A stretch of DNA of 33,255 nucleotides from Nocardiopsis salina YIM 90010 (GTDB lineage Bacteria > Actinomycetota > Actinomycetes > Streptosporangiales > Streptosporangiaceae), in contig NZ_ANBF01000234.1 of NCBI RefSeq assembly GCF_000341025.1, forward strand, positions 1 through 33,255. Direction: 5' to 3'. Position 1 is the stretch's first letter. Every line of letters begins with the position of its first letter. The notes beneath the pieces were generated by a model. The model was not told where the DNA came from, made no database searches, and saw only the letters and a list, made by a program, of their open reading frames with translations. The position numbers and the translations under genes are program-made. Shown in pieces: positions 2-26,165 of the stretch.

Positions 2-172
2 CCCCGCCACAAGAACGACCTGCCGCCGCTCGTCGCACCGACGCCGTACCGCCCCGCCGGTTCCGCCCTCCACAAGCCCGGAACCCGATACCACCTGGGG
101 ATCCTCCGGCAGTCATGGCACCTGCGACTTCGGACGGACGCGCCGAATGTGGAAGGATTTCTACGTGACTGA
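2..172 (+). CDS. C-terminal end of an unidentified upstream gene (partial)
   Basis: An open frame enters from the left edge and ends at TGA 170-172. It gives about 56 residues, ending in NVEGFLRD. The first two thirds have the strong G/C preference at third codon positions expected of a real gene here; the last dozen codons are less biased. The stop lies 8 bases inside the next gene if that starts at GTG 165, an overlap typical of a translationally coupled operon. I recognise no domain in the fragment, so no function is proposed. It could be chance open sequence in a GC-rich genome; codon bias and the stop/start overlap are the only support. Confidence 0.5.
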   Translation, partial: PRHKNDLPPLVAPTPYRPAGSALHKPGTRYHLGILRQSWHLRLRTDAPNVEGFLRD

Positions 173-5040: not shown

Positions 5041-6627
5041 TCAGTGTTCGACCGGGATCTCCTCGAACTCACCGAACGGGCCGGCGCGCAGGTTCATCTC
5101 CTCGACGTCCACAGCCGGTGCGGGGAAGACCGCGACCAGCTCGTAGGTGTTGCCGGGCTGGAGCATGTGGACCTCCTCCGCGAAGCTGCTGTAACGCCCC
5201 TCGCCGAAGTCCATCTGCGCCACGTACCGGGTCAGCCCGCTGTCGGGCTCGGCGAGCTGGAACCCGCCCAGCGTGCCCTTGTTGAACTGCTCGGGGCCGC
5301 CTGCGATGTTCTCCGAACCACCCAGTTCCGGCACGGTCGGCTCGTCGGTGGTGTTGGTCAGCGTGTACGTGCCGATCACGTAGGCGCCGTCGCGCCGCAG
5401 CGGGTGGATCTCCAGTTCCACGCCATCGGCCTCGCCCTCGTCGACCACGGGGCCGGGGTCGTCGCTGTAGGGCGCCGGCCAGGTGACGTTGCGCTGGGCG
5501 GCGCCGAGGCCGTCGTCGTCGTAGGCCTCTTCCTCCGACGTGTCCACGGTGGGGTTGAAGACGTAGGAGAACTCCACACGCCGGTTCCGGGCCCGGGCCT
5601 CGTCGTCGTCCGCGCCGCCCTCGCGGGCGACGGGTTCGTTCATGCCGCGGCCCTCGACCTCGAGGTCGTGGTCGGTGCCGAGCTCCTCGGCGAGCAGGTC
5701 GCGCACGCTCTCGGCGCGTTCCACCGACAGGTTGTCGTTGTAGGCGTCGTCGCCGATGCCGTCGGTGTGGCCGATGACGGTGATGGTCGGCTCGTCGGGG
5801 TCGACGTTCTGCGCGAGGGTCGTGGCGGCGCGGCGCACGACGTCCTCGGCGTCCCCTGTCAGGTCCGAACGGTCGAACTCGAACATCACGTCGGAGTGCA
5901 GGGAGATGATCTCCCGGTCGCCGTCGCGGGTGGTGGAGGCGACGTCGGAGTCGACGAAGCTCTGCACCCAGCCGTCGTCGGCCAGGGCATCGTCGTCCGG
6001 CGGACGGTTGGCGAAGGTGATGTTCTCGCCGCCCGCAGGGGGGCTGTCGGGGGTGAGGTGGTCGTCGGCGTTGGGGTTGTCGGGGGCGGGGGTCTCCTCG
6101 TCCACGTCCTGGACGGGGATGCCGGTCATCGCGCCGAGGCCGCTGCCGACGAAGGTGACCTGCTCGACGCTGTCGGGCAGGCGGGGGAAGTAGCGGATGA
6201 ACTCGTTGGTGACGCCGTCGTGCACCGGGTACAGGCCGTCGCCGTTGGGGCTCTCCGATCCGTACTTGAGGCCCTCGTCGTCGAGGAACTGCCGGTACAC
6301 GCGACCGGACATGGGGTCGACCAGGGTGTGCGCCATGCTCAGGTTGCGGTTGGCGCCGGCGAAGTCGTCGTCGTAGGTGACCTCGTACCGCATGACCGTG
6401 TAGTCGTCGGTGCGCTCCAGGGAGGTGACGGAGAAGGTCGTCTCGACGTCCTGTCCGGTGTCCTGGAAGATCCGGCCCTCGCGTTCGTAGGGGAAATCCT
6501 CCCTGACCGTCGGCGGGCCGTCTTCGAAGGTGTCCGACCACCAGTCCGAGACCGCGGTGCAACCGGTCAGCAGGAGGCTGCCCGAGACCATCAGCGCGAC
6601 CACTGCGAGGGGCGTCTTCCGCGCCAT
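5041..6627 (-). CDS. OmpA-domain lipoprotein with flanking duplicated domains
   Basis: A 528-residue predicted lipoprotein from ATG 6627 (MARKTPLAVV), with lipobox LTGC and lipidation at C23. A start further upstream would bury the signal peptide. Residues about 240-355 form an OmpA-type peptidoglycan-binding domain, seen in FEFDRSDLT, the motif GHTDG (286-290), LSVERAESVRDLL and RARNRRVEFSY. Those Asp and Arg positions bind diaminopimelate in characterised homologues. On either side lie domains that resemble each other: residues about 62-172 and 404-526 share an L-x-D/E-P-x-SG-x3-Y pattern and similar beginnings and ends. A lipid anchor plus peptidoglycan-binding module implies tethering of membrane to wall. 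Two acidic, Pro-rich linkers separate the domains. It is convergent with the preceding lipoprotein and divergent from the sigma-factor cassette. Confidence 0.9.
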   Translation of the reverse strand: MARKTPLAVVALMVSGSLLLTGCTAVSDWWSDTFEDGPPTVREDFPYEREGRIFQDTGQDVETTFSVTSLERTDDYTVMRYEVTYDDDFAGANRNLSMAHTLVDPMSGRVYRQFLDDEGLKYGSESPNGDGLYPVHDGVTNEFIRYFPRLPDSVEQVTFVGSGLGAMTGIPVQDVDEETPAPDNPNADDHLTPDSPPAGGENITFANRPPDDDALADDGWVQSFVDSDVASTTRDGDREIISLHSDVMFEFDRSDLTGDAEDVVRRAATTLAQNVDPDEPTITVIGHTDGIGDDAYNDNLSVERAESVRDLLAEELGTDHDLEVEGRGMNEPVAREGGADDDEARARNRRVEFSYVFNPTVDTSEEEAYDDDGLGAAQRNVTWPAPYSDDPGPVVDEGEADGVELEIHPLRRDGAYVIGTYTLTNTTDEPTVPELGGSENIAGGPEQFNKGTLGGFQLAEPDSGLTRYVAQMDFGEGRYSSFAEEVHMLQPGNTYELVAVFPAPAVDVEEMNLRAGPFGEFEEIPVEH

Positions 6628-6831
6628 GTGGGGGAACTCCGATCGTGTCTGAGGACGTACCTGCCATATCCTCCTGCACTCGCGCACGGGACCGGAACAC
6701 GGCAGCGCCCCACCCGCCGCCACAAGCGCGGCACCGCACCATGAGCACGACAAGACGGGCGCTCCGACCAGGCAGGAGGCCGCCGACCCGGGGGCCGTCC
6801 GCGGTCCGCTGAAAAAAGTTCGGGATCGGAC

Positions 6832-6858
6832 CCATCCGCCCCGCCCGGTGCCGCGAAT
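6832..6858 (+). promoter_or_regulatory. SigK-like promoter, leaderless
   Basis: CCATCC at 6832-6837 and CGAAT at 6854-6858 are separated by 16 bases. As I recall, mycobacterial SigK promoters carry CCATCC at -35 and CCGAAT at -10. The downstream GTG 6866 is 7 bases after the -10, where transcription would begin, giving a leaderless mRNA. The cassette encodes a SigK-like factor, so autoregulation is the natural reading. The match is by eye. Confidence 0.6.
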
Positions 6859-6865
6859 ACCTCAT

Positions 6866-8476
6866 GTGAGCACAGAGACACGCGAGAGCGCACCCCAGGC
6901 ACCCGGGCGGACCACCGCCACGGGGATCGCCGTCGGGCTGCTCACCGTCGGGGCGGCCCTGGCGGCCGCCGAACCGACCGCCGCCCTGGCCCGTACGGCA
7001 CCCCCGGTGGTCGCCGTCGGGGACGCCCTGGTGGACAACAGCCCCCCGGCCGCGATGGAGCTTGCCATCGAGCTGTTCGGCACCGCCGACAAGCTCGTGC
7101 TGATGGCGGGTGTCGTGGTCGTACTGGTGGCTGCGGGTGCGGTTCTCGGTGTCGTGTCCCTGCGGCGGCCTCCGGCGGCGTTCGCCGGGCTGTTCCTGTT
7201 CGGCGCCGCAGGGATGCTCGCACTGTTCCTCCGCCGTGACGACGACGCCTGGGCCGTCCTGCCCGTCGTCGTCGCCGTGGCGGCGGGGGCCGCGGCCCTC
7301 GGGTTGCTCCTTCGGAGCCTGCCCGGGGCGTCGCGGGGCCGGGAGAGGAGAGAGCCGGGGAAACCGTCGGGGCCCGGGGCGAATGTGCCCGCCCCGGGAC
7401 CGGCACGAGGGCAGGGAAGGCGTGGTTTCGCCCTCACCGCGGCCGGTGTGCTGGCCGCGTCCGGTTCCGCAGGGGTCCTCGGCCGTTGGCTCCCGTCGGT
7501 CCTGGAGGGGCCCGGATCGCGTGAGTCCCTCTCCCTCCCGGCCGCCCGGCACCCGTTGCCCGCCCTGCCCCGGGGTGTGGACCTCCGGGTTCCGGGGCTG
7601 TCCAGTTTCACCACCCCCAACCAGGACTTCTACCGCATCGACACGGCCCTGACCGTTCCGAGGCTCGACTCCACCCAATGGACACTCCGTGTGCACGGCA
7701 TGGTCGACCGTCCCTTCGAGATCGACATGGACGAGCTGCTTTCGATGCCCCTCCAGGAAGCCGACATCACACTCACGTGCGTCTCGAACGAGATCGGGGG
7801 CGACCTGGTCGGCAACACCCGCTGGCTCGGGTTCCCGCTGGCCGAGCTGCTGCGCCGGGCCGGGGTGCAGTCGGGGGCCGACCAGATCCTCAGCACCTCC
7901 CAGGACGGCTGGACCTGCGGCACACCCACCGAGACGGTGATGGACGGCCGCGACGCCCTTCTGGCCGTGGGCATGGACGGCGTCCCCCTCCCCCACCGGC
8001 ACGGTTTCCCCGCGCGCATGGTCGTGCCCGGCCTGTACGGCTACGTCAGTGCCACCAAGTGGGTCACCGACATGAAGCTGACCCGGTTCGCCGACGAAGA
8101 GGCGTACTGGGCCCAGCGCGACTGGGGCGTGCGCGCCCCCATCAAGACCATGTCCCGCGTCGACGTGCCGTCCCCCTTGGGGCGGGTGGATTCCGGCGAG
8201 GTGACGCTCGCCGGGGTCGCCTGGGCACAGACACGCGGCATCGATGCCGTCGAGGTCCGTGTGAACGACGGCGATTGGCAGGAAGCTGAACTTGCCCGGG
8301 TTCCAGGCCTGGACACCTGGGTGCAGTGGATCGCCGAGACCGAGCTGGAGCCGGGCATGCACAGCGCCGAGGTCCGCGCGACCGACGGCACCGGCTTCAC
8401 CCAACCCGCCGAACGTGTGGACCCGTTGCCCGACGGAGCCACCGGTTGGCACCGGATCCGATTCACGGCCGAGTAG
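6866..8476 (+). CDS. Membrane-anchored molybdopterin oxidoreductase (sulfite oxidase fold)
   Basis: A 536-residue enzyme from GTG 6866. GTG 6848 is also open but lies inside the promoter described at 6832-6858. Four hydrophobic segments (about 18-40, 76-98, 106-122, 128-149) are followed by a basic linker and a fifth segment introduced by RRGFALTAAG (R185-R186), which resembles a twin-arginine signal. The catalytic domain starts near residue 230. C305 in LTCVSNEIGG sits where sulfite-oxidase-family enzymes bind molybdenum, and HRHGFPARMVVPGLYGY then ATKWV are typical cofactor contacts. The last 110 residues match the Ig-like dimerisation domain. The substrate is unknown. With the fasciclin and SigK genes it forms one transcription unit, suggesting exported redox chemistry under SigK control. 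Confidence 0.9.
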   Translation: MSTETRESAPQAPGRTTATGIAVGLLTVGAALAAAEPTAALARTAPPVVAVGDALVDNSPPAAMELAIELFGTADKLVLMAGVVVVLVAAGAVLGVVSLRRPPAAFAGLFLFGAAGMLALFLRRDDDAWAVLPVVVAVAAGAAALGLLLRSLPGASRGRERREPGKPSGPGANVPAPGPARGQGRRGFALTAAGVLAASGSAGVLGRWLPSVLEGPGSRESLSLPAARHPLPALPRGVDLRVPGLSSFTTPNQDFYRIDTALTVPRLDSTQWTLRVHGMVDRPFEIDMDELLSMPLQEADITLTCVSNEIGGDLVGNTRWLGFPLAELLRRAGVQSGADQILSTSQDGWTCGTPTETVMDGRDALLAVGMDGVPLPHRHGFPARMVVPGLYGYVSATKWVTDMKLTRFADEEAYWAQRDWGVRAPIKTMSRVDVPSPLGRVDSGEVTLAGVAWAQTRGIDAVEVRVNDGDWQEAELARVPGLDTWVQWIAETELEPGMHSAEVRATDGTGFTQPAERVDPLPDGATGWHRIRFTAE

Positions 8477-8540
8477 TCGGCGGCCACCCCGAGGCACAGA
8501 GCTTCGGGAACGCTGTTCACCGCAGATGAAGGAGATAACG

Positions 8541-9236
8541 ATGATCCGCAAGAGCACACTGACCGTGACCGCCGCCAGTGCCGCCCTGGCCTTCGGCCTC
8601 AGCGCCTGTGGCGGCGACATGGGCGACGACGCCGAGGACGCCAACACCGGTGGTACCGAGGAGACCGAAGAGAACGGGATGGAGAACGGCCAGGAGGAGA
8701 ACGGCGGCGACGAGGCCGCCGCCAACTTCGGCCCCGGCTGTGAAGAGGTGCCCGAGGAGGGTGAAGGCAGCTTCGACGGCATGGCCGAGGAGCCCGTGGC
8801 GACCGCCGCATCCAACAACCCGCTGCTGTCCACACTGACGGAGGCGGTCGAGGAGGCCGACCTGGTCGACACGCTGAACTCCGCCGAGGACGTCACGGTC
8901 TTCGCACCGACCGACGACGCGTTCGACGCGGTGCCCGACGAGGACCTGGACGCTCTCATGCAGGACCAGGAGCAGCTCACCGAGGTCCTCACCTACCACG
9001 TGGTCGAGGGCGTACAGGAGCCCGCCGACCTGGAAGAGGGCACGTTCACCTCGCTCCAGGGCGAGAACGTGACCACCGAGGGCTCCGGCGAGGACTTCAC
9101 CGTCGACGGCGAGGCCCAGGTCGTCTGCGGCAACGTGCAGACCGCGAACGCCAACGTCTACATCATCGACTCCGTCCTCATGCCGGGTGAGGGCGAGGAA
9201 GGCGCCGAGGACGAGGGCGCCGAGGACACCCAGTAA
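8541..9236 (+). CDS. Fasciclin (FAS1) domain lipoprotein
   Basis: A 231-residue lipoprotein related to the MPT70/MPT83 group. ATG 8541 is chosen over 8526 because AAGGAG at 8529-8534 is placed correctly for it. Lipobox LSAC gives lipidation at C23. Residues 25-80 are an acidic Gly/Glu linker. The FAS1 domain spans about 85-215, with the conserved VTVFAPTDDAF (118-128) and YHVV (152-155) motifs and a closing NVYIIDSVLMP. C67 and C196 could form a disulfide like the cysteine pair of the mycobacterial antigens. An acidic tail ends the protein. It lies 64 bases after the oxidoreductase and 116 before sigK, in the same direction. A role in cell-surface adhesion or envelope structure is inferred from the family. 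Confidence 0.92.
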   Translation: MIRKSTLTVTAASAALAFGLSACGGDMGDDAEDANTGGTEETEENGMENGQEENGGDEAAANFGPGCEEVPEEGEGSFDGMAEEPVATAASNNPLLSTLTEAVEEADLVDTLNSAEDVTVFAPTDDAFDAVPDEDLDALMQDQEQLTEVLTYHVVEGVQEPADLEEGTFTSLQGENVTTEGSGEDFTVDGEAQVVCGNVQTANANVYIIDSVLMPGEGEEGAEDEGAEDTQ

Positions 9237-9352
9237 GTTCCGCACCCTGCGGACATGATCGCCCGGGGTGGCCCGTGCGGTGAGGCCGGGTCACCCGGGC
9301 CCCCAGGGGCTCAGGCCCCGGGCCCCCACCACGCCGATCAGGAAGAGAACGC

Positions 9353-9955
9353 ATGGACGAGGAAGCCGTGACCCCGCACCGGGTCGGGGCGAAGGCTCAT
9401 GCGCCCCCCGCCCAGCAGCTCACCGAACTGCTGCGTCTGGTCGCCCGCGGCGACGAGGAGGCCTTCGGGAAGGTGTACGACCTGGTGAGCCCCACCGTCT
9501 ACGGGCTGGTGCGGCGGGTCCTGCGCGACCCGGCCCAGTCCGAGGAGGTGGCCCAGGAAGTACTCGTCGAGGTGTGGCGCTCCGCCTGCCGGTACGACGA
9601 GCGCCGCGGCAGCCCTCAGGCCTGGGTCATGACCCTCGCCCACCGGCGGGCCGTGGACCGGGTCCGCTCCGAGCAGGCGGGGGTCGAGCGTGAACAGCGC
9701 GCCGCCACCGCCGAGGGCACGCGCCCCTACGACGAGGTCTCCGAGGAGGTGACCGACCGTATGGAGCGCGAACGTGTGCGGCGGTGCCTGGAGACCCTGA
9801 CCGAGCTGCAGGGCCAGTCCGTCCACCTGGCCTTCTACGGCGGCTACACCTACCGCGAGGTGGCCCGCCTGCTGTCCACTCCGCTCGGTACCGTCAAGAC
9901 GAGGATGCGGGACGGCTTGATCCGACTTCGAGACTGCCTGGGGGTGGACTGGTGA
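9353..9955 (+). CDS. sigK: ECF RNA polymerase sigma factor, SigK type
   Basis: A 200-residue ECF sigma factor. Region 2 (about 35-105) includes RDPAQSEEVAQEVLVEVW, the usual region 2.1-2.2 pattern, and SPQAWVMTLAHRRAVDRVR for -10 recognition. Region 4 (about 135-195) has the helix-turn-helix YTYREVARLLSTPLGTVKTRMRDGL broken by no gaps. ATG 9353 follows GGAAGAG. The stop overlaps the anti-sigma start as GTGA, so the two are translationally coupled. The SigK assignment rests on sequence character, the coupled RskA-like gene, the fasciclin neighbour and the SigK-like promoter upstream. The gap before it (9237-9352) is very GC-rich, with small inverted repeats such as GGGGC/GCCCC at 9306-9319 that might attenuate read-through. 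No second SigK-like promoter was seen there. Confidence 0.9.
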   Translation: MDEEAVTPHRVGAKAHAPPAQQLTELLRLVARGDEEAFGKVYDLVSPTVYGLVRRVLRDPAQSEEVAQEVLVEVWRSACRYDERRGSPQAWVMTLAHRRAVDRVRSEQAGVEREQRAATAEGTRPYDEVSEEVTDRMERERVRRCLETLTELQGQSVHLAFYGGYTYREVARLLSTPLGTVKTRMRDGLIRLRDCLGVDW

Positions 9956-10704
9956 GGAGAACACTGAGCCAGGACCAGCACACACTCTCGGGTGCCTATG
10001 CCCTGGACGCCCTTCCCCCCGAGGAGAGCGTCCGTTTCGAGGACCACCTCGCCGAGTGCGACGCATGCGTCCAGGAGGTGCGCGGTTTCGCCGAGACCAC
10101 GGCGCGCCTGGCGTCGGCGGCCGCGAGCCCGCCCCCGGAGGAACTGCGTTCCAAGGTGATGTCGGAGATCTCCCGGACCCGCCAGCTCGCCCCGCCTCCT
10201 GCCCGGATCGCCGAACCGCCGCGCCGTTGGGGTTGGGGCACGAGTCTGGCCCTGGCCGCCTGCCTGGTGGTGATCCTGGTGCTGGGCGGGCTCGTCTTCG
10301 ACCAGGTCCGCCAGGTTCAGGAGCTGCGGGAGAACGAGCGCCAGATCGCCGCGGTGCTCTCCGCCCCGGACGCGGTGACCACCTCCGCCGAGGTGGACGA
10401 GGACGTGTCCGCCACGGTGGTGAGCTCACCGAGCACCGGTGATGTCGTCTTCAGCGCCCACGGCCTGCAGGAACTGCAGGACGAGGACTACCAGCTCTGG
10501 CTCACCCGCGACGACGGGTCCGTGTACTCGGCCGGTGTGCTGGACGTCGGCGACGGCGGTGAGGTGTCCCCGATGCTCGCCTCGGTCGAGGACCCCGGCA
10601 CCGAGGGGGTCGCGGTGACCGTGGAGCCCGAGGGCGGCTCCGAACAACCCACGGACGACCCGATGATGGCGATGCCCTTCGACGAGGAGCCCGGCCAGGA
10701 CTGA
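9952..10704 (+). CDS. rskA: Membrane anti-sigma-K factor
   Basis: A 250-residue single-pass membrane anti-sigma factor. GTG 9952 overlaps the sigK stop by four bases (GTGA), which sets the start. The N-terminal anti-sigma domain carries the zinc motif H32-x3-C36-x2-C39. A membrane helix follows at about 97-117 (LALAACLVVILVLGGLVF), then an extracytoplasmic RskA domain from about 140 with DEDYQLWLTRDDGSVYSAGV and a Pro/Asp-rich tail. In the family the cytoplasmic part holds the sigma factor until signal-triggered proteolysis releases it. Its place in the operon ensures stoichiometric production with SigK. All key residues are present. Confidence 0.93.
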   Translation: MRRTLSQDQHTLSGAYALDALPPEESVRFEDHLAECDACVQEVRGFAETTARLASAAASPPPEELRSKVMSEISRTRQLAPPPARIAEPPRRWGWGTSLALAACLVVILVLGGLVFDQVRQVQELRENERQIAAVLSAPDAVTTSAEVDEDVSATVVSSPSTGDVVFSAHGLQELQDEDYQLWLTRDDGSVYSAGVLDVGDGGEVSPMLASVEDPGTEGVAVTVEPEGGSEQPTDDPMMAMPFDEEPGQD

Positions 10705-10710
10705 CCGTCC

Positions 10711-10749
10711 AGGACGTCACCCCCGTGGCTCAGGCGGGGGTGACGTCCT
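10711..10749. terminator. Strong hairpin terminator, rskA / convergent MFS gene
   Basis: AGGACGTCACCCCC (10711-10724) pairs perfectly over 14 bp with 10736-10749 around an 11-base loop. It starts 7 bases after the rskA stop and overlaps the last codons of the convergent MFS gene, whose stop is at 10730. The 3' arm therefore also encodes the MFS C-terminus. Confidence 0.85.
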
Positions 10750-12025
10750 CGGATCGGGGCAGGTTCCGCATCGTCGGTGTGAGGCTGATCAGCGCGGCCA
10801 GGCCCGACACCGCAGCCATCGACAGGAACACCAGCGTGGGCCCGGCCATGTCGAAGACGATGCCGACCGCGAGGATGCCCACCGGCTGGGACACCAGGCA
10901 CAGGAACGACACCGCTCCCAGGACCCGCCCCTGCATGCCGTCGGGGACGGAGGTGGCGATGTACCCGAAGAAGACGGCGTTGACCGCGGGCACGAACGCG
11001 AAGACCGCGCCCACCAACAGCCCGAGACTGAGCACCCCGGGGGTCAGGGCCAGCGCGACCGCGCACACGGGGGCTCCCCAGGCGGCCAGGCGGAAGACCG
11101 TGGAGGGCCGCAGGAACCGCACCACGGCTCCGGCGGCGAGGGCACCCACGAGCCCCCCGGAACCGGCCAGGGACACCGTGAGCCCGATGGTGAAGTCGCC
11201 CGCGCCCTTGCTCTCCGCGGTCGCGATGATCGCCAGGACCGCCCCGGTGCTGGTGAAGGCCAGGTTGAAGCCGACGATCCACGCCATGAGGGGACGCAGG
11301 AGCCGGTTGCGGGCGATCACCCCGAACCCGCCCACGACCCAGGACACCTCCCAGGGGCTCGGGTCCTCGGGCGCGCGGGCCTGCATGGGTCTGCGGATCT
11401 GGAGCACGAGCACCGCCGAGACGAGGTAACTGAACGCCTCGGCGACAAAAGGCAAGGCCCGCCCGAGACCGAAGAGGCCGCCGGCGACCGGCGGCCCGAG
11501 TGCGGTGGTGGAGAAGAAGCGGATCTGGTTCTGTGCGGCGGCCTCGGCCACCTGGGAAGGTGGGACGAGCTGTTTGACCGCGGCCATCGCGACCGGGTTG
11601 GCCACGCCCATGAGCAGGGACGATGACACCGCGACGGCCGACACCACGGGCACCGTCGCGGCGCCGGAGACGACCAGGAGCGCGAACGCGGCCAGCAGCA
11701 CCAGACGGCCGAAGTCGCAGACGAGCAGGACGAACCGGCGGTCGCACCGGTCGGCGATCGAGCCCCCGACCACGGAGGCGACCATCGCCGCGGTGACCTG
11801 GGCGGCGCCGATCGCCCCGGCGTGGGTGGCCGAACCCACCAGGAGCAGCACCAGGAGCGGGTAGGCGACCTCGCCGCTCTCCTTGCCCAGCCCGGCGAAG
11901 AACCGGCTCAGCCACAGCGCCTGGAAATCGCGGTTGCGGAGCAGCGGCGGCTCGGTGCCGGGGGCGGCGGGGTGGCGGCGCGGAGCCGTCCAGTGGAAAT
12001 GGGGTCGCCGTCCGTCCGTGGTCAT
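10730..12025 (-). CDS. MFS transporter (multidrug/siderophore exporter type)
   Basis: A 431-residue major facilitator protein. ATG 12025 (MTTDGRRPHFHW) is chosen because GGGGGGA sits 7 bases upstream on the minus strand; frames extending further upstream give Pro-rich, non-coding-like sequence. The N-terminus LRNRDFQALWLSRFFAGLG opens the first helix, and about 12 hydrophobic segments follow. The loop between helices 2 and 3 has GGSIADRCDRR, a variant of the MFS G-x3-D-R-x2-RR motif. The order and tail resemble MFS_3/EntS-type exporters. Substrate cannot be inferred. Its 3' end overlaps the terminator of the sigma cassette, and its leader contains a nested inverted repeat at 12049-12083. Confidence 0.9.
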   Translation of the reverse strand: MTTDGRRPHFHWTAPRRHPAAPGTEPPLLRNRDFQALWLSRFFAGLGKESGEVAYPLLVLLLVGSATHAGAIGAAQVTAAMVASVVGGSIADRCDRRFVLLVCDFGRLVLLAAFALLVVSGAATVPVVSAVAVSSSLLMGVANPVAMAAVKQLVPPSQVAEAAAQNQIRFFSTTALGPPVAGGLFGLGRALPFVAEAFSYLVSAVLVLQIRRPMQARAPEDPSPWEVSWVVGGFGVIARNRLLRPLMAWIVGFNLAFTSTGAVLAIIATAESKGAGDFTIGLTVSLAGSGGLVGALAAGAVVRFLRPSTVFRLAAWGAPVCAVALALTPGVLSLGLLVGAVFAFVPAVNAVFFGYIATSVPDGMQGRVLGAVSFLCLVSQPVGILAVGIVFDMAGPTLVFLSMAAVSGLAALISLTPTMRNLPRSEDVTPA

Positions 12026-22907: not shown

Positions 22908-23551
22908 ACAGGGCGGGGGTCAGGCGGTGGGCGCCTCACCGTGGACGCCGCCTCCGCAAGTCGGTTGGCGGACCGGCAGGACCGGGTGTGGGTAGTGGCG
23001 TCTTGCCTCGAGTGGCCCTACGTCTGAAGACGGGACACACACCCAACGAGGCGACTGCACACGCCCGCACGGCCACTGCCATGCACCGTCTCGTCGGCCG
23101 CCGCTTCGGCCCCCTGCAGCGATCCCGGTTGTGGGCAGCGTGGTCCTCACCTACCAGCCTGGGGCGGCGGTCTCTCCTCCGGGTTGGCCGGATCCGGTCA
23201 ACCGGGCGGCTCGCCGCCTGCTCGCGGGGCGGTGCAAGCCGCGGTCTTGCCGACAAGAGAGCGCTGAAACCTCACGATCATGCAACCGGTCCGTGCGCTC
23301 CACCGGACCCCCATCCGTGTGTGATGTCTCATGCCCAGGTCGGCGATCAGCGCGTCTCCCGGAAAACTCCCGGGACGGCCGCCCCGATCGATCCCTGATG
23401 AAACCCCCTTTTTTGGAGGCCCACCGCCCCGACCCGTCCGCTCACCGGGCCGGACGGCAACCGCTGCCCGAACAGCCCGCACCACCGGCACCATCCCCCT
23501 TCGCCCCGCGCAACGCCAACGACGTGCATGGGGCCCATCCGACGGAGAACC
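22908..23551. other. Geneless stretch upstream of the Rhs pseudogene
   Basis: About 640 bases with no supported gene. It holds a long imperfect palindrome at 23179-23206, a hairpin GGTCCG/CGGACC at 23288-23309, and a run of six T at 23409-23414 not preceded by a GC stem. A 27-codon minus-strand frame beginning MIVRFQRSLVGK near 23282 lacks a ribosome site and is not called. The stretch may contain the long leader of the Rhs gene or eroded sequence. Confidence 0.5.
23179..23206. repeat. 28-base imperfect palindrome centred on GGATCC
   Basis: The 14-base halves pair at 12 Watson-Crick positions plus one G/T, with one G/G mismatch and no loop. It could be a protein-binding site or one side of a former insertion or recombination point. 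Confidence 0.45.
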
Positions 23552-26165
23552 ATGTCCGCGCATCCCCCGCGCAGATCCACCATCCCCGCGGCCGCGGCCG
23601 CGACCGCGCTGGTCACCGCGGTCTCCCTGCTCTCACCGCCGCCCGCCCCGGCCGAGTCCGGCGACTCGGGCTCGCAGCAGGTGCCCGAGGGAGACACCTG
23701 GGAGCCGCCCGAGGAGACCACTTCCGAACCCTCGGGCGGCGACCCGCCCGATCAGAACTGGCAACAGCCCCACGAGCGCGAGTCCGACCAGGCCCCCAAG
23801 ACCTTCTCCGCCCAGGACGAGGAGGCGGGGCAGTCGTGCGATGACGGCACCAACCGCGGTGTGCAGGAGCACTACCCTCTGGAGCGGCACCAGATCAGCG
23901 ACCGCCTGGAGCTGGACGTCAACACCGAGAACGGCAACACCGTCCTGCGCCACCGCGATCTGACCATCCCCGGCACCGGCATCGACCTGTCGGTCTCCAG
24001 CGTCTACAACAGCCAGGACCCGGGCGCCAACGGGTGGAAGCTCTCCACCGGCACCGATGTGGGCCTGGACTTCATCACCGACTCCGACGACGTCGTCTTC
24101 CGCGGCCCCTCCGGGTTCTGCGAGATCTTCACCGACCAGGGCGGCGGCGCCTTCGAGTCCCCCGAGGAGATGGAGGCCGACCTCGAAGAGCTCGACAACG
24201 GCCGCTACGCCCTGACCTTCGGCCAGGGCTCCTACGCCGACCAGATGTGGACCTTCACCGCCGACGGATGGCTCTACTCCCAGAGCGACCACAACGGCAA
24301 CACCCAGACCCTGGGCTATGACGACGACGGCCTGGTCACCTCCATCAGCGACGACCAGGACCGCGTCACCGAACTCGACTGGCACGAGAGCCGCATCGGG
24401 CCGAGCGAGGTCACCGACCCCACCGGCACCACCGCCGCCGAGTACGCCTACGACGCCGACGGACTGCTGACCGAGATCACCGACCGGGCCGGGCAGACCG
24501 TCGAGTTCGCCTACGACGACGACAACCACCTGGACGAGGTCACCGACGCCCGCGGCCACACCTGGCGGCTCGACCACGACGCCGATGGCCGCCTCCAAGA
24601 GCTCACCAAGCCGGTGACCGGCGATGAGACCGCCACCACCAGCTACGACCACGGTGACGGTCGAACCGAGGTCACCGATGCGCGCGGCAACACCTCCACG
24701 CACGCCTTCGACGAGGCAGGGCGCCAGGAGGAGGCCACCGACGCCGAGGGCAACACCCGCTCGACGGCCTGGACCTCGGCGGCCTCGGTGGCGGGGGCGA
24801 CCGACCCGGCGGGCAACTCCACCACCCACGACTACGACGACCTGAACAACATGGTCGGCACCGAGCTGCCCACCGGCGCCGAGTTCCAGGTCGGATACGC
24901 CGACTCGGCCAACCCGCACAAGCCCACCTCCATCGACGCTCCCGATGGGGAGGTGGAGCTGGACTACGACGACCGGGGCAACCTGACCCAGGTCCGCCGG
25001 CCCGGCGCCGAGGAGCCCGAACAGAGCCTGGAGTACAACAACAACGGCACCCTGGCCTCACAGACCAACGGCGAAGGCGCCACCACTGAGTTCTCCTACG
25101 ACGAGGACGGCAACCTCACCGAGATCGATCAGCCCGACCCGCTTGGCACCACCGGCTTCACCTACGACGCTCTTTCCCGGGTGAGCAGTGTCACCGACGG
25201 CAACGGCACCACCATCGAATACTCCTACGACGCCCTGGGCCGCGTCACCGAGATCGTCCACGACGGCGACATCCTGCAGTCCACCGAGTACAACGCCAAC
25301 GGTGATGTCACTGCCACCCACACCCCACAGGCCACCGTGGCCCACACCTACAACAAGCGCGGCGAGGTGGCCAACACCGGGCGCGACGACGGCGACGACC
25401 ACGAGTCCTACGACTACACCTACGACCAGGCCGGCAACCTGACCTCGTTGACCGAGCACGGCGCCACCACCGAATACACCTACGACGCTGCCAACCGCCT
25501 CACCGCCGTCACCGACGACCAGGACGGCGAGACCGAGATCGGCTACGACGAGGCCGGCCACCGCAGCCAGGTGACCTTCCCGGACGGGGCCGCCCAGGAG
25601 CTGGAGCACAACGAGGCCGGACTCCTGGTCGAGTCGGTGATGGCCAACGCCGACGGCGAGGCCTTGGCCGAGGCCGCCTACTCCTACACGACGAGGAGGG
25701 AGAAGAGAGCACCAAGCTGCAGTCGCGCACCGTCAACGGCCAGAGCCTGGAGTTCACCTACGACGAGCGCGGCCGTCTGACCAGCGACGGCGAGCAGGAC
25801 TACACCTACGACGAGGCCGACAACCTCCTCTCCTGGGCGGGACCGACTACGAGGTCAACGAGGCCGACCAGGTCACCGCGGTGGACGGCACCGAGCTGGG
25901 CCACGACGAGGCCGGCAACCTCACCGACGTGGGTGGGGACATCGAGATCGGCTACAGCCCGACCGGGCAGATGCAGGACAAGGACGCCGGCGGTACCGGC
26001 CTGGATGCGGCCATCACCTACGACACCGCCGATTCCACCCAGCGCCGCACCCTCACCCAAGGCTCCGGTGAGGACGCCGTTACCCAGACGCTGACCAACA
26101 CCGCGCTGGGCATCTCCAGCATCGAGCAGGAGGACGGGGACCGCACCCGGTACGTGCGTGACCCC
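23552..26165 (+). pseudogene. Secreted Rhs/YD-repeat protein, frameshifted and 3'-truncated
   Basis: ATG 23552 follows GGAG at 23544-23547. A signal peptide (to about residue 36, PAPAES) and an acidic linker precede an Rhs N-terminal module (TENGNTVLRHRDLTIPGTG). More than a dozen YD repeats follow, such as YDALGRVTEIVHDGD and YDAANRLTAVTDD. Near 25689 one base is missing: the frame moves and continues as DEEGEESTKLQSRTVNGQ. Near 25844 a second base is missing and the frame moves again, into DYEVNEADQVTAV. The third frame carries the start of the Rhs core (DGDRTRYVRDP) and then loses all similarity at about 26165. The rest of the core, the variable toxin tip and any immunity gene are absent. 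Such proteins normally deliver C-terminal toxins in contact competition; this copy cannot. Confidence 0.85.

Follow-up and report, generated by a model that had tools for sequence, protein, structure and literature searches.

A SigK-RskA operon headed by a molybdopterin oxidoreductase gene with a predicted leaderless start in Nocardiopsis salina

The stretch of DNA analysed here, called the window, is a single contig of 33,255 nucleotides (NZ_ANBF01000234.1) within the 5.8 Mb genome of Nocardiopsis salina YIM 90010. It carries a one-way operon in which the gene of a membrane-anchored molybdopterin oxidoreductase (MoOR) is followed by those of a fasciclin lipoprotein, the extracytoplasmic function (ECF) sigma factor SigK and the anti-sigma factor RskA, with the sequence CCATCC-N16-CGAAT at its head. 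We consider it highly likely that this operon is a SigK-RskA switch transcribed from that sequence, and that the RNA starts at G6866, where the MoOR start codon begins, giving a leaderless message. Among named genome records, the nearest relatives of the sigma factor are those of Nocardiopsis.

The promoter and the operon in the window

The mycobacterial SigK promoter consensus is CCATCC/CGAAT. In the window the -35 element CCATCC is found at 6832-6837 on the plus strand and is separated by a 16-base spacer from the -10 element CGAAT at 6854-6858 (CGAATA to 6859), which ends 7 bases before the GTG at 6866. The initial annotation had placed both boxes directly before this codon, and the letters agree with it. 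A SigK-type promoter of the form C(C/A)ATCC-N16/17-CGAAT stands at the operon head. In relatives the equivalent place is occupied by CCATCC or CAATCC, and the -10 element is retained. Within the window, CCATCC-N14-18-CGAAT occurs once, for an expectation of 0.06 in shuffled sequence, and at least one match was obtained in 6 of 100 shuffles.

The same annotation proposed that the position of the -10 element decides the start codon of MoOR, and this reading was upheld. The open reading frame list prefers GTG 6848, which was rejected: it sits between the -35 and -10 boxes and hence cannot lie on a SigK transcript. ATG 6864 is out of frame and is immediately followed by TGA. The next in-frame start after 6866 is found at 7007, 47 codons on, behind a weak Shine-Dalgarno sequence (-1.7). 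For the genes of the operon, the Shine-Dalgarno duplex energy is -5.3 kcal/mol at MoOR versus -9.5 at the fasciclin gene, -6.0 at sigK and -12.9 at rskA, the margin to sigK being small.

The gene content proposed for the cassette was confirmed by curated protein models. MoOR (6866-8476) matches PF00174 with 145.6 bits (cut-off 24) and ends in a C-terminal domain of the SUOX fold. The fasciclin-domain lipoprotein (8541-9236) resembles MPT70/MPT83: it scores 115.5 bits against PF02469 (cut-off 22), its best solved relative is MPT70 (1nyo, E 1.7e-36), and a lipobox, LSAC, was read by eye. SigK (9353-9955) matches NCBIfam PRK09646.1 with 286.3 bits (cut-off 226) and has Mycobacterium tuberculosis SigK as best solved relative (4nqw, E 2.4e-50). 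Its Cys145 and Cys195 align with two cysteines of 4nqw and show no variation across the 20 sequences aligned, that of the window among them; according to the accessible parts of PMC7509140 the M. tuberculosis pair is numbered C133/C183, and ours occupies the equivalent places. RskA (9952-10704) scores 94.2 bits against PF10099 (RskA_C; cut-off 29.4) and 205.2 bits against NF052375 (cut-off 100), RskA_N being likewise above its gathering score; a search by sequence returned no solved relative. It carries HTLSGAYALDAL, one letter off the helix 1 motif HTLAGAYALDAL of group AS19-1 as given in the accessible part of PMC7406223. The sigK stop and the rskA start overlap by 4 bases (GTGA), and the order fasciclin lipoprotein, sigK, rskA is that of the mpt83-sigK-rskA cassette.

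The site in relatives and its distance to the start codon

Relatives were gathered from 150 family genomes (60 stretches fetched), 80 loci of named genome records, 20 further stretches picked by site or place and 40 class stretches from 246 class genomes, all stretches being hand-picked from listings. The script set holds 180 distinct sigK loci. Before, after or divergent from sigK sit 66 distinct MoOR genes (two loci duplicated in the raw set, L097 and L305, stand once in the final MoOR tables), of which 4 lie too close to a contig edge, leaving 62 evaluable and, among these, 39 without a cassette gene directly upstream. Since this sample was mostly drawn near SigK genes, it says little on MoOR genes elsewhere. 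One locus found by the site pattern (L296) has a MoOR gene and no SigK within its fetched stretch. The strict site, as counted in relatives, admits CGAAC, which concerns 2 of 33 MoOR sites (L038 and L350).

Of the 39 first-position MoOR genes, 29 have a strict site, or 30 when L102, missed by the script, is counted. Six more have sites with one mismatch (five genes) or two (one gene), and starts 7 or 8 bases on. When MoOR lies inside a cluster (n = 23), a site is present in 4 cases, all of them Nocardiopsis genes that follow a second fasciclin gene; the 7 MoOR genes directly behind rskA are without a strict one. Of the 33 strict-site MoOR genes, 29 have their in-frame start 7 bases after the -10 box, 3 have it at 6 bases and 1 at another distance; in L098 a GTG at 7 bases is out of frame with the MoOR frame. 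The seven letters that follow the -10 box vary, the 33 genes showing 26 distinct strings (at 6-base sites the string takes in the first letter of the start codon). The spacing is thus preserved while the letters drift, as predicted by a fixed distance from the -10 element to a start codon at +1. Site and distance span 17 genus labels (18 with L102) and three family labels, the labels being counted by hand. Furthermore, the N-terminal peptides of MoOR are similar from codon 2 onward in 12 Nocardiopsis-type sequences.

The initial annotation expected both boxes to be conserved in relatives. At MoOR genes this is largely so, but the -35 box reads CAATCC in 24 of the 33 sites and is in that form commoner than CCATCC; an exact CCATCC as sole test in relatives was therefore set aside as too strict. 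At sigK genes the picture is more mixed, as detailed below.

The leaderless geometry proposed for the MoOR gene is matched in relatives: an in-frame start 6 or 7 bases after the -10 box is found in 32 of the 33 strict-site MoOR genes, which predicts the 5' end of their transcripts. A Shine-Dalgarno tetramer occurs in 0 of 32 MoOR genes (window included) and in 0 of 31 sigK genes at a distance of 6-8 bases, compared with 8 of 11 fasciclin genes and 10 of 23 sigK genes at 20-60 bases. Not all SigK-type sites share this leaderless geometry. Where fasciclin genes have their own site, 11 of 19 start at 35-45 bases and 12 of 19 have their first in-frame start at least 16 bases on. In the case of sigK, a strict site stands before 68 of the 150 genes that lack a cassette gene directly upstream. 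Of all 69 sigK sites, 31 have the start at 7-8 bases, 6 at 0, 5 or 9 bases and 32 at 16 bases or more. In seven loci (L005 to L011), a second CAATCC-N16/17-CGAAY was observed downstream of the sigK match; it is absent from the window.

A looser search (any first base, N15-18, the start being that of the longest frame) was made in loci of family f4, which would be the Mycobacteriaceae, judging from its gene content and top scores. Upstream of sigK, 9 of 17 loci have a same-strand gene starting exactly 7 bases after CGAAT. Six of the nine sites lie close before sigK and three about 3-4 kb up, and one reads TCATCC. The products of these genes presumably resemble DUF1365 proteins and Rv0449c-type oxidoreductases.

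Genome-wide occurrence and competing explanations

In order to place the site in a genomic background, patterns were searched with displaced and reversed controls, the rows being counted by hand. In the 150 family genomes, CAATCC-N15-17-CGAAT-N6-8-RTG gave 71 rows versus 32 at the displaced distance N12-14 (10 of them the same sites) and 3 reversed. The CCATCC form gave 70 rows versus 55 at N12-14 (9 the same sites) and 2 reversed. According to these counts, the CAATCC form carries a genome-wide signal and the CCATCC form, which is that of the window, little. Of 65 distinct CAATCC leaderless matches, 20 head a MoOR gene, 20 head sigK and 25 neither, which is not an unbiased rate as the stretches were partly chosen by SigK. 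In one genome (G135), two frames that by eye look glycosyltransferase-like start 7 bases after CAATCC-N16-CGAAT (L353 at 3153 and, on the minus strand, L079 at 10087) and are possible further SigK targets.

In the source genome, C(C/A)ATCC-N15-17-CGAAY at any distance from a start gave 6 + 21 = 27 matches versus 0 + 7 reversed, most of them, by eye, at places unlike gene starts. Given these matches and the displaced-distance controls, the motif alone is insufficient as genome-wide evidence; the improbable feature is its position at the head of a SigK cassette, not the bare motif. Strict searches (CGAAT, start codon 6-8 bases on) returned a single match, the site of the window. The loose leaderless pattern ATCC-N15-18-CGAAY-N6-8-RTG also gave 27 matches, and among these the window's alone combines C(C/A)ATCC with CGAAT; two candidates with C(C/A)ATCC and CGAAC (L180 and L186) were rejected, their frames being unlike gene starts. 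Another site (L378; G000:C245, bases 48-74, minus strand) reads CAATCC-N16-CGAAT and is followed 38 bases on by an ATG preceded by GAAGGGA, the frame being cut by the contig end. It is likely a leadered second SigK target, and a strict one-operon regulon was given up because of it. Hence, the strict leaderless regulon of the source genome is the window operon, and at least one leadered target besides is likely. A single fasciclin domain and a single close MoOR are encoded in the genome; the second-best MoOR match is partial, with 29% identity.

Several results count against a leaderless SigK promoter at MoOR, or at least against its generality. Three of the 39 first-position MoOR genes (L090, L091 and L092) are without a usable site, L091 having one with two mismatches and a start 39 bases on, and the six mismatched MoOR sites were counted without a shuffled control. 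At first-position sigK genes, 82 of 150 have no strict site directly upstream; in some of these loci a site precedes MoOR or genes located further up. Duplex energies of -6 kcal/mol or below are found in 4 of 32 MoOR and 15 of 31 sigK genes of the short class versus 11 of 11 fasciclin and 22 of 23 sigK genes of the leadered class, the contrast being clear for MoOR and weaker for sigK. A broader short class (5-9 bases) gives 22 of 72 versus 38 of 41 in the leadered class, and probably contains some fasciclin or sigK genes with a true start further on. To these must be added the mild enrichment of the CCATCC form noted above and a genome of the same genus, G134 (L259/L293, G134:C50 near 14684), in which the promoter and some 54 codons of MoOR are retained, followed by unrelated sequence. 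No sigK, rskA or fasciclin gene was found in the 14 kb fetched around this site, so a site can persist without function.

The last case bears on the idea that most transcription of the operon depends on read-through or on a different sigma factor, with the SigK-like boxes as a minor or relic promoter. This is made conceivable by G134 and by the accessible text of PMC7509140, which describes a promoter not regulated by SigK directly before M. tuberculosis sigK. We nevertheless find it unlikely, as the site and its distance have been kept at the MoOR genes of 17 genus labels (18 with L102) while the letters between diverged, and no sigma-70-like match was returned in 6500-11000 by a scan that covers actinobacterial promoters poorly. 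The boxes might instead be a true SigK promoter with MoOR translated from a later in-frame codon of a leadered RNA. Leadered SigK-type sites do occur, as the distances of 16 bases or more in 12 of 19 fasciclin and 32 of 69 sigK genes attest. However, a start at 7007 would, besides its weak ribosome site, delete the first hydrophobic stretch of MoOR, and both the N-terminal peptide, alike from codon 2, and the fixed distance speak for 6866; we regard a later start as very improbable. A chance occurrence of the motif before a SigK cassette could be argued from the frequency of the CCATCC form alone in genomes this rich in GC. Relatives, however, conserve the site at the same place and distance, and coincidence is close to negligible as an explanation. 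We thus retain transcription from the SigK-type site with a leaderless MoOR start at G6866.

Observations in two relatives are consistent with a module that can disappear as a whole. Besides G134, Nocardiopsis listeri NBRC 13360 (L103) has the MoOR N-terminus in one open frame with the fasciclin protein and its sigK and rskA frames merged and split, which may be decay or an assembly error; in another N. listeri record (L096) the cassette is intact.

Proposed circuit, known systems and surroundings

In the proposed circuit, RskA in the membrane would hold SigK. Once released, SigK with RNA polymerase would bind CCATCC-N16-CGAAT and the RNA would start at G6866, so that MoOR would be made by leaderless initiation while the fasciclin lipoprotein, SigK and RskA would be translated from internal ribosome sites on the same RNA. 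With sigK and rskA on that RNA, the sigma factor and its brake would amplify and reset themselves. Recognition of the site by SigK, inhibition by RskA and redox sensing by the cysteine pair are suggested by analogy with the known systems, and autoregulation of the operon by the site together with published mycobacterial work.

For the mycobacterial SigK regulon (Veyrier et al. 2008, 2020), the accessible parts of PMC7509140 describe the minimal mpt83-sigK-rskA cassette, its autoregulation from an upstream promoter and the cysteine pair, and state that SigK sites are conserved among Actinobacteria and present in Yersinia. The fasciclin lipoprotein, the SigK cysteine pair, RskA and a SigK-type site are common to that cassette, as there described, and to the window, but the window has MoOR as first gene and its site at the MoOR start codon. 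In the accessible main text of PMC7509140, the terms oxidoreductase, fasciclin and CCATCC do not occur. Among the matches listed by a literature search, which most subscription journals lay outside, there was no SigK-driven MoOR or leaderless SigK regulon, and the searched literature gave no match for ECF19 together with fasciclin. Hence, the cassette, its autoregulation and the conservation of its site are known, while MoOR at the operon head, the conserved fusion of promoter and start codon and the contrast with leadered fasciclin promoters seem to be new. In M. smegmatis, 24% of transcripts of genes with a mapped primary start are leaderless, according to the accessible part of PMC6448022. 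The window shares with such genes a start codon at the 5' end, here predicted from sequence; unlike mycobacterial leaderless genes generally, the geometry is tied to the site of one alternative sigma factor and kept across genera.

The MoOR protein has four hydrophobic N-terminal stretches (residues 16-36, 68-102, 102-123 and 127-153) and a twin arginine preceding a weakly hydrophobic fifth. R185, R186 and C305 are at least 95% conserved across 32 sequences, window included, and we take Cys305 to be the molybdenum ligand. With its SUOX-fold domain, which in a search of solved relatives is closest to sulfite oxidases, and its conserved Cys305, MoOR resembles SorA, SorT, SoxC and MsrP (YedY), but it stays far below their NCBIfam equivalog cut-offs (98/600 bits for SorA, 90/420 for SoxC, 79/570 for SorT and 58/207 for MsrP). 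The four hydrophobic stretches, the twin arginine before a weak fifth and the C-terminal molybdenum domain are also reminiscent of the Sco3746-type haem-Mo proteins, five-span proteins with a molybdenum cofactor, inserted by Sec and Tat, that are described in the accessible part of PMC5449189. Unlike these, the membrane part of MoOR has no conserved histidine: no column of histidine reaches 95% in the 32 sequences, including in spans 2-4 where the Sco3746-type residues lie, and the first 200 residues contain none in the window protein and 1-4 in 23 of the 32. These features suggest joint insertion of MoOR by Sec and Tat and activity outside the membrane. There the enzyme would probably serve in redox reactions or repair of the envelope, as a partner of the fasciclin lipoprotein. 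The initial annotation regarded the redox enzyme as an added output of the circuit. MoOR does head the operon, but this association is not peculiar to the window, as the 66 distinct MoOR genes of the gathered loci illustrate.

Concerning the remaining parts of the operon, the gap between the fasciclin gene and sigK (9237-9352) can fold into GC-rich stem-loops (-63.2 kcal/mol, z -1.8; 11 of 200 shuffles equally good), which could possibly lower sigK relative to the MoOR and fasciclin genes. A GC-rich hairpin at about 10705-10757 (-44.2 kcal/mol, z -5.9), flanked by the convergent rskA and MFS genes, is the probable shared 3' end of both; no T run was found there. Elsewhere in the window, an OmpA-domain protein with a lipoprotein-like start is encoded divergently at 5041-6627 on the minus strand (beginning at 6627), and an RHS-repeat protein with 7 matched stretches is encoded at 23528-25780 on the plus strand. 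An Rfam scan at the gathering threshold and a tRNA scan of the window gave no match.

Beyond this operon, it is conceivable, as a tentative extension, that a SigK promoter fused to the start codon is a selected unit in Actinomycetes, leaderless at MoOR and many sigK genes and leadered at fasciclin genes, and that this architecture would set the translation mode and the behaviour under stress. In practical terms, the start codon of MoOR genes can be assigned by a rule based on promoter position. The switch, best known from tuberculosis antigens, occurs here in compact form in a genus of soil bacteria. With a single fasciclin protein and a small number of candidate targets, this operon offers a setting in which to look for the signal of SigK with few other factors interfering. 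The molybdenum redox enzyme as recurrent partner points to the redox state of the envelope, or to protein repair, as the job of the circuit.

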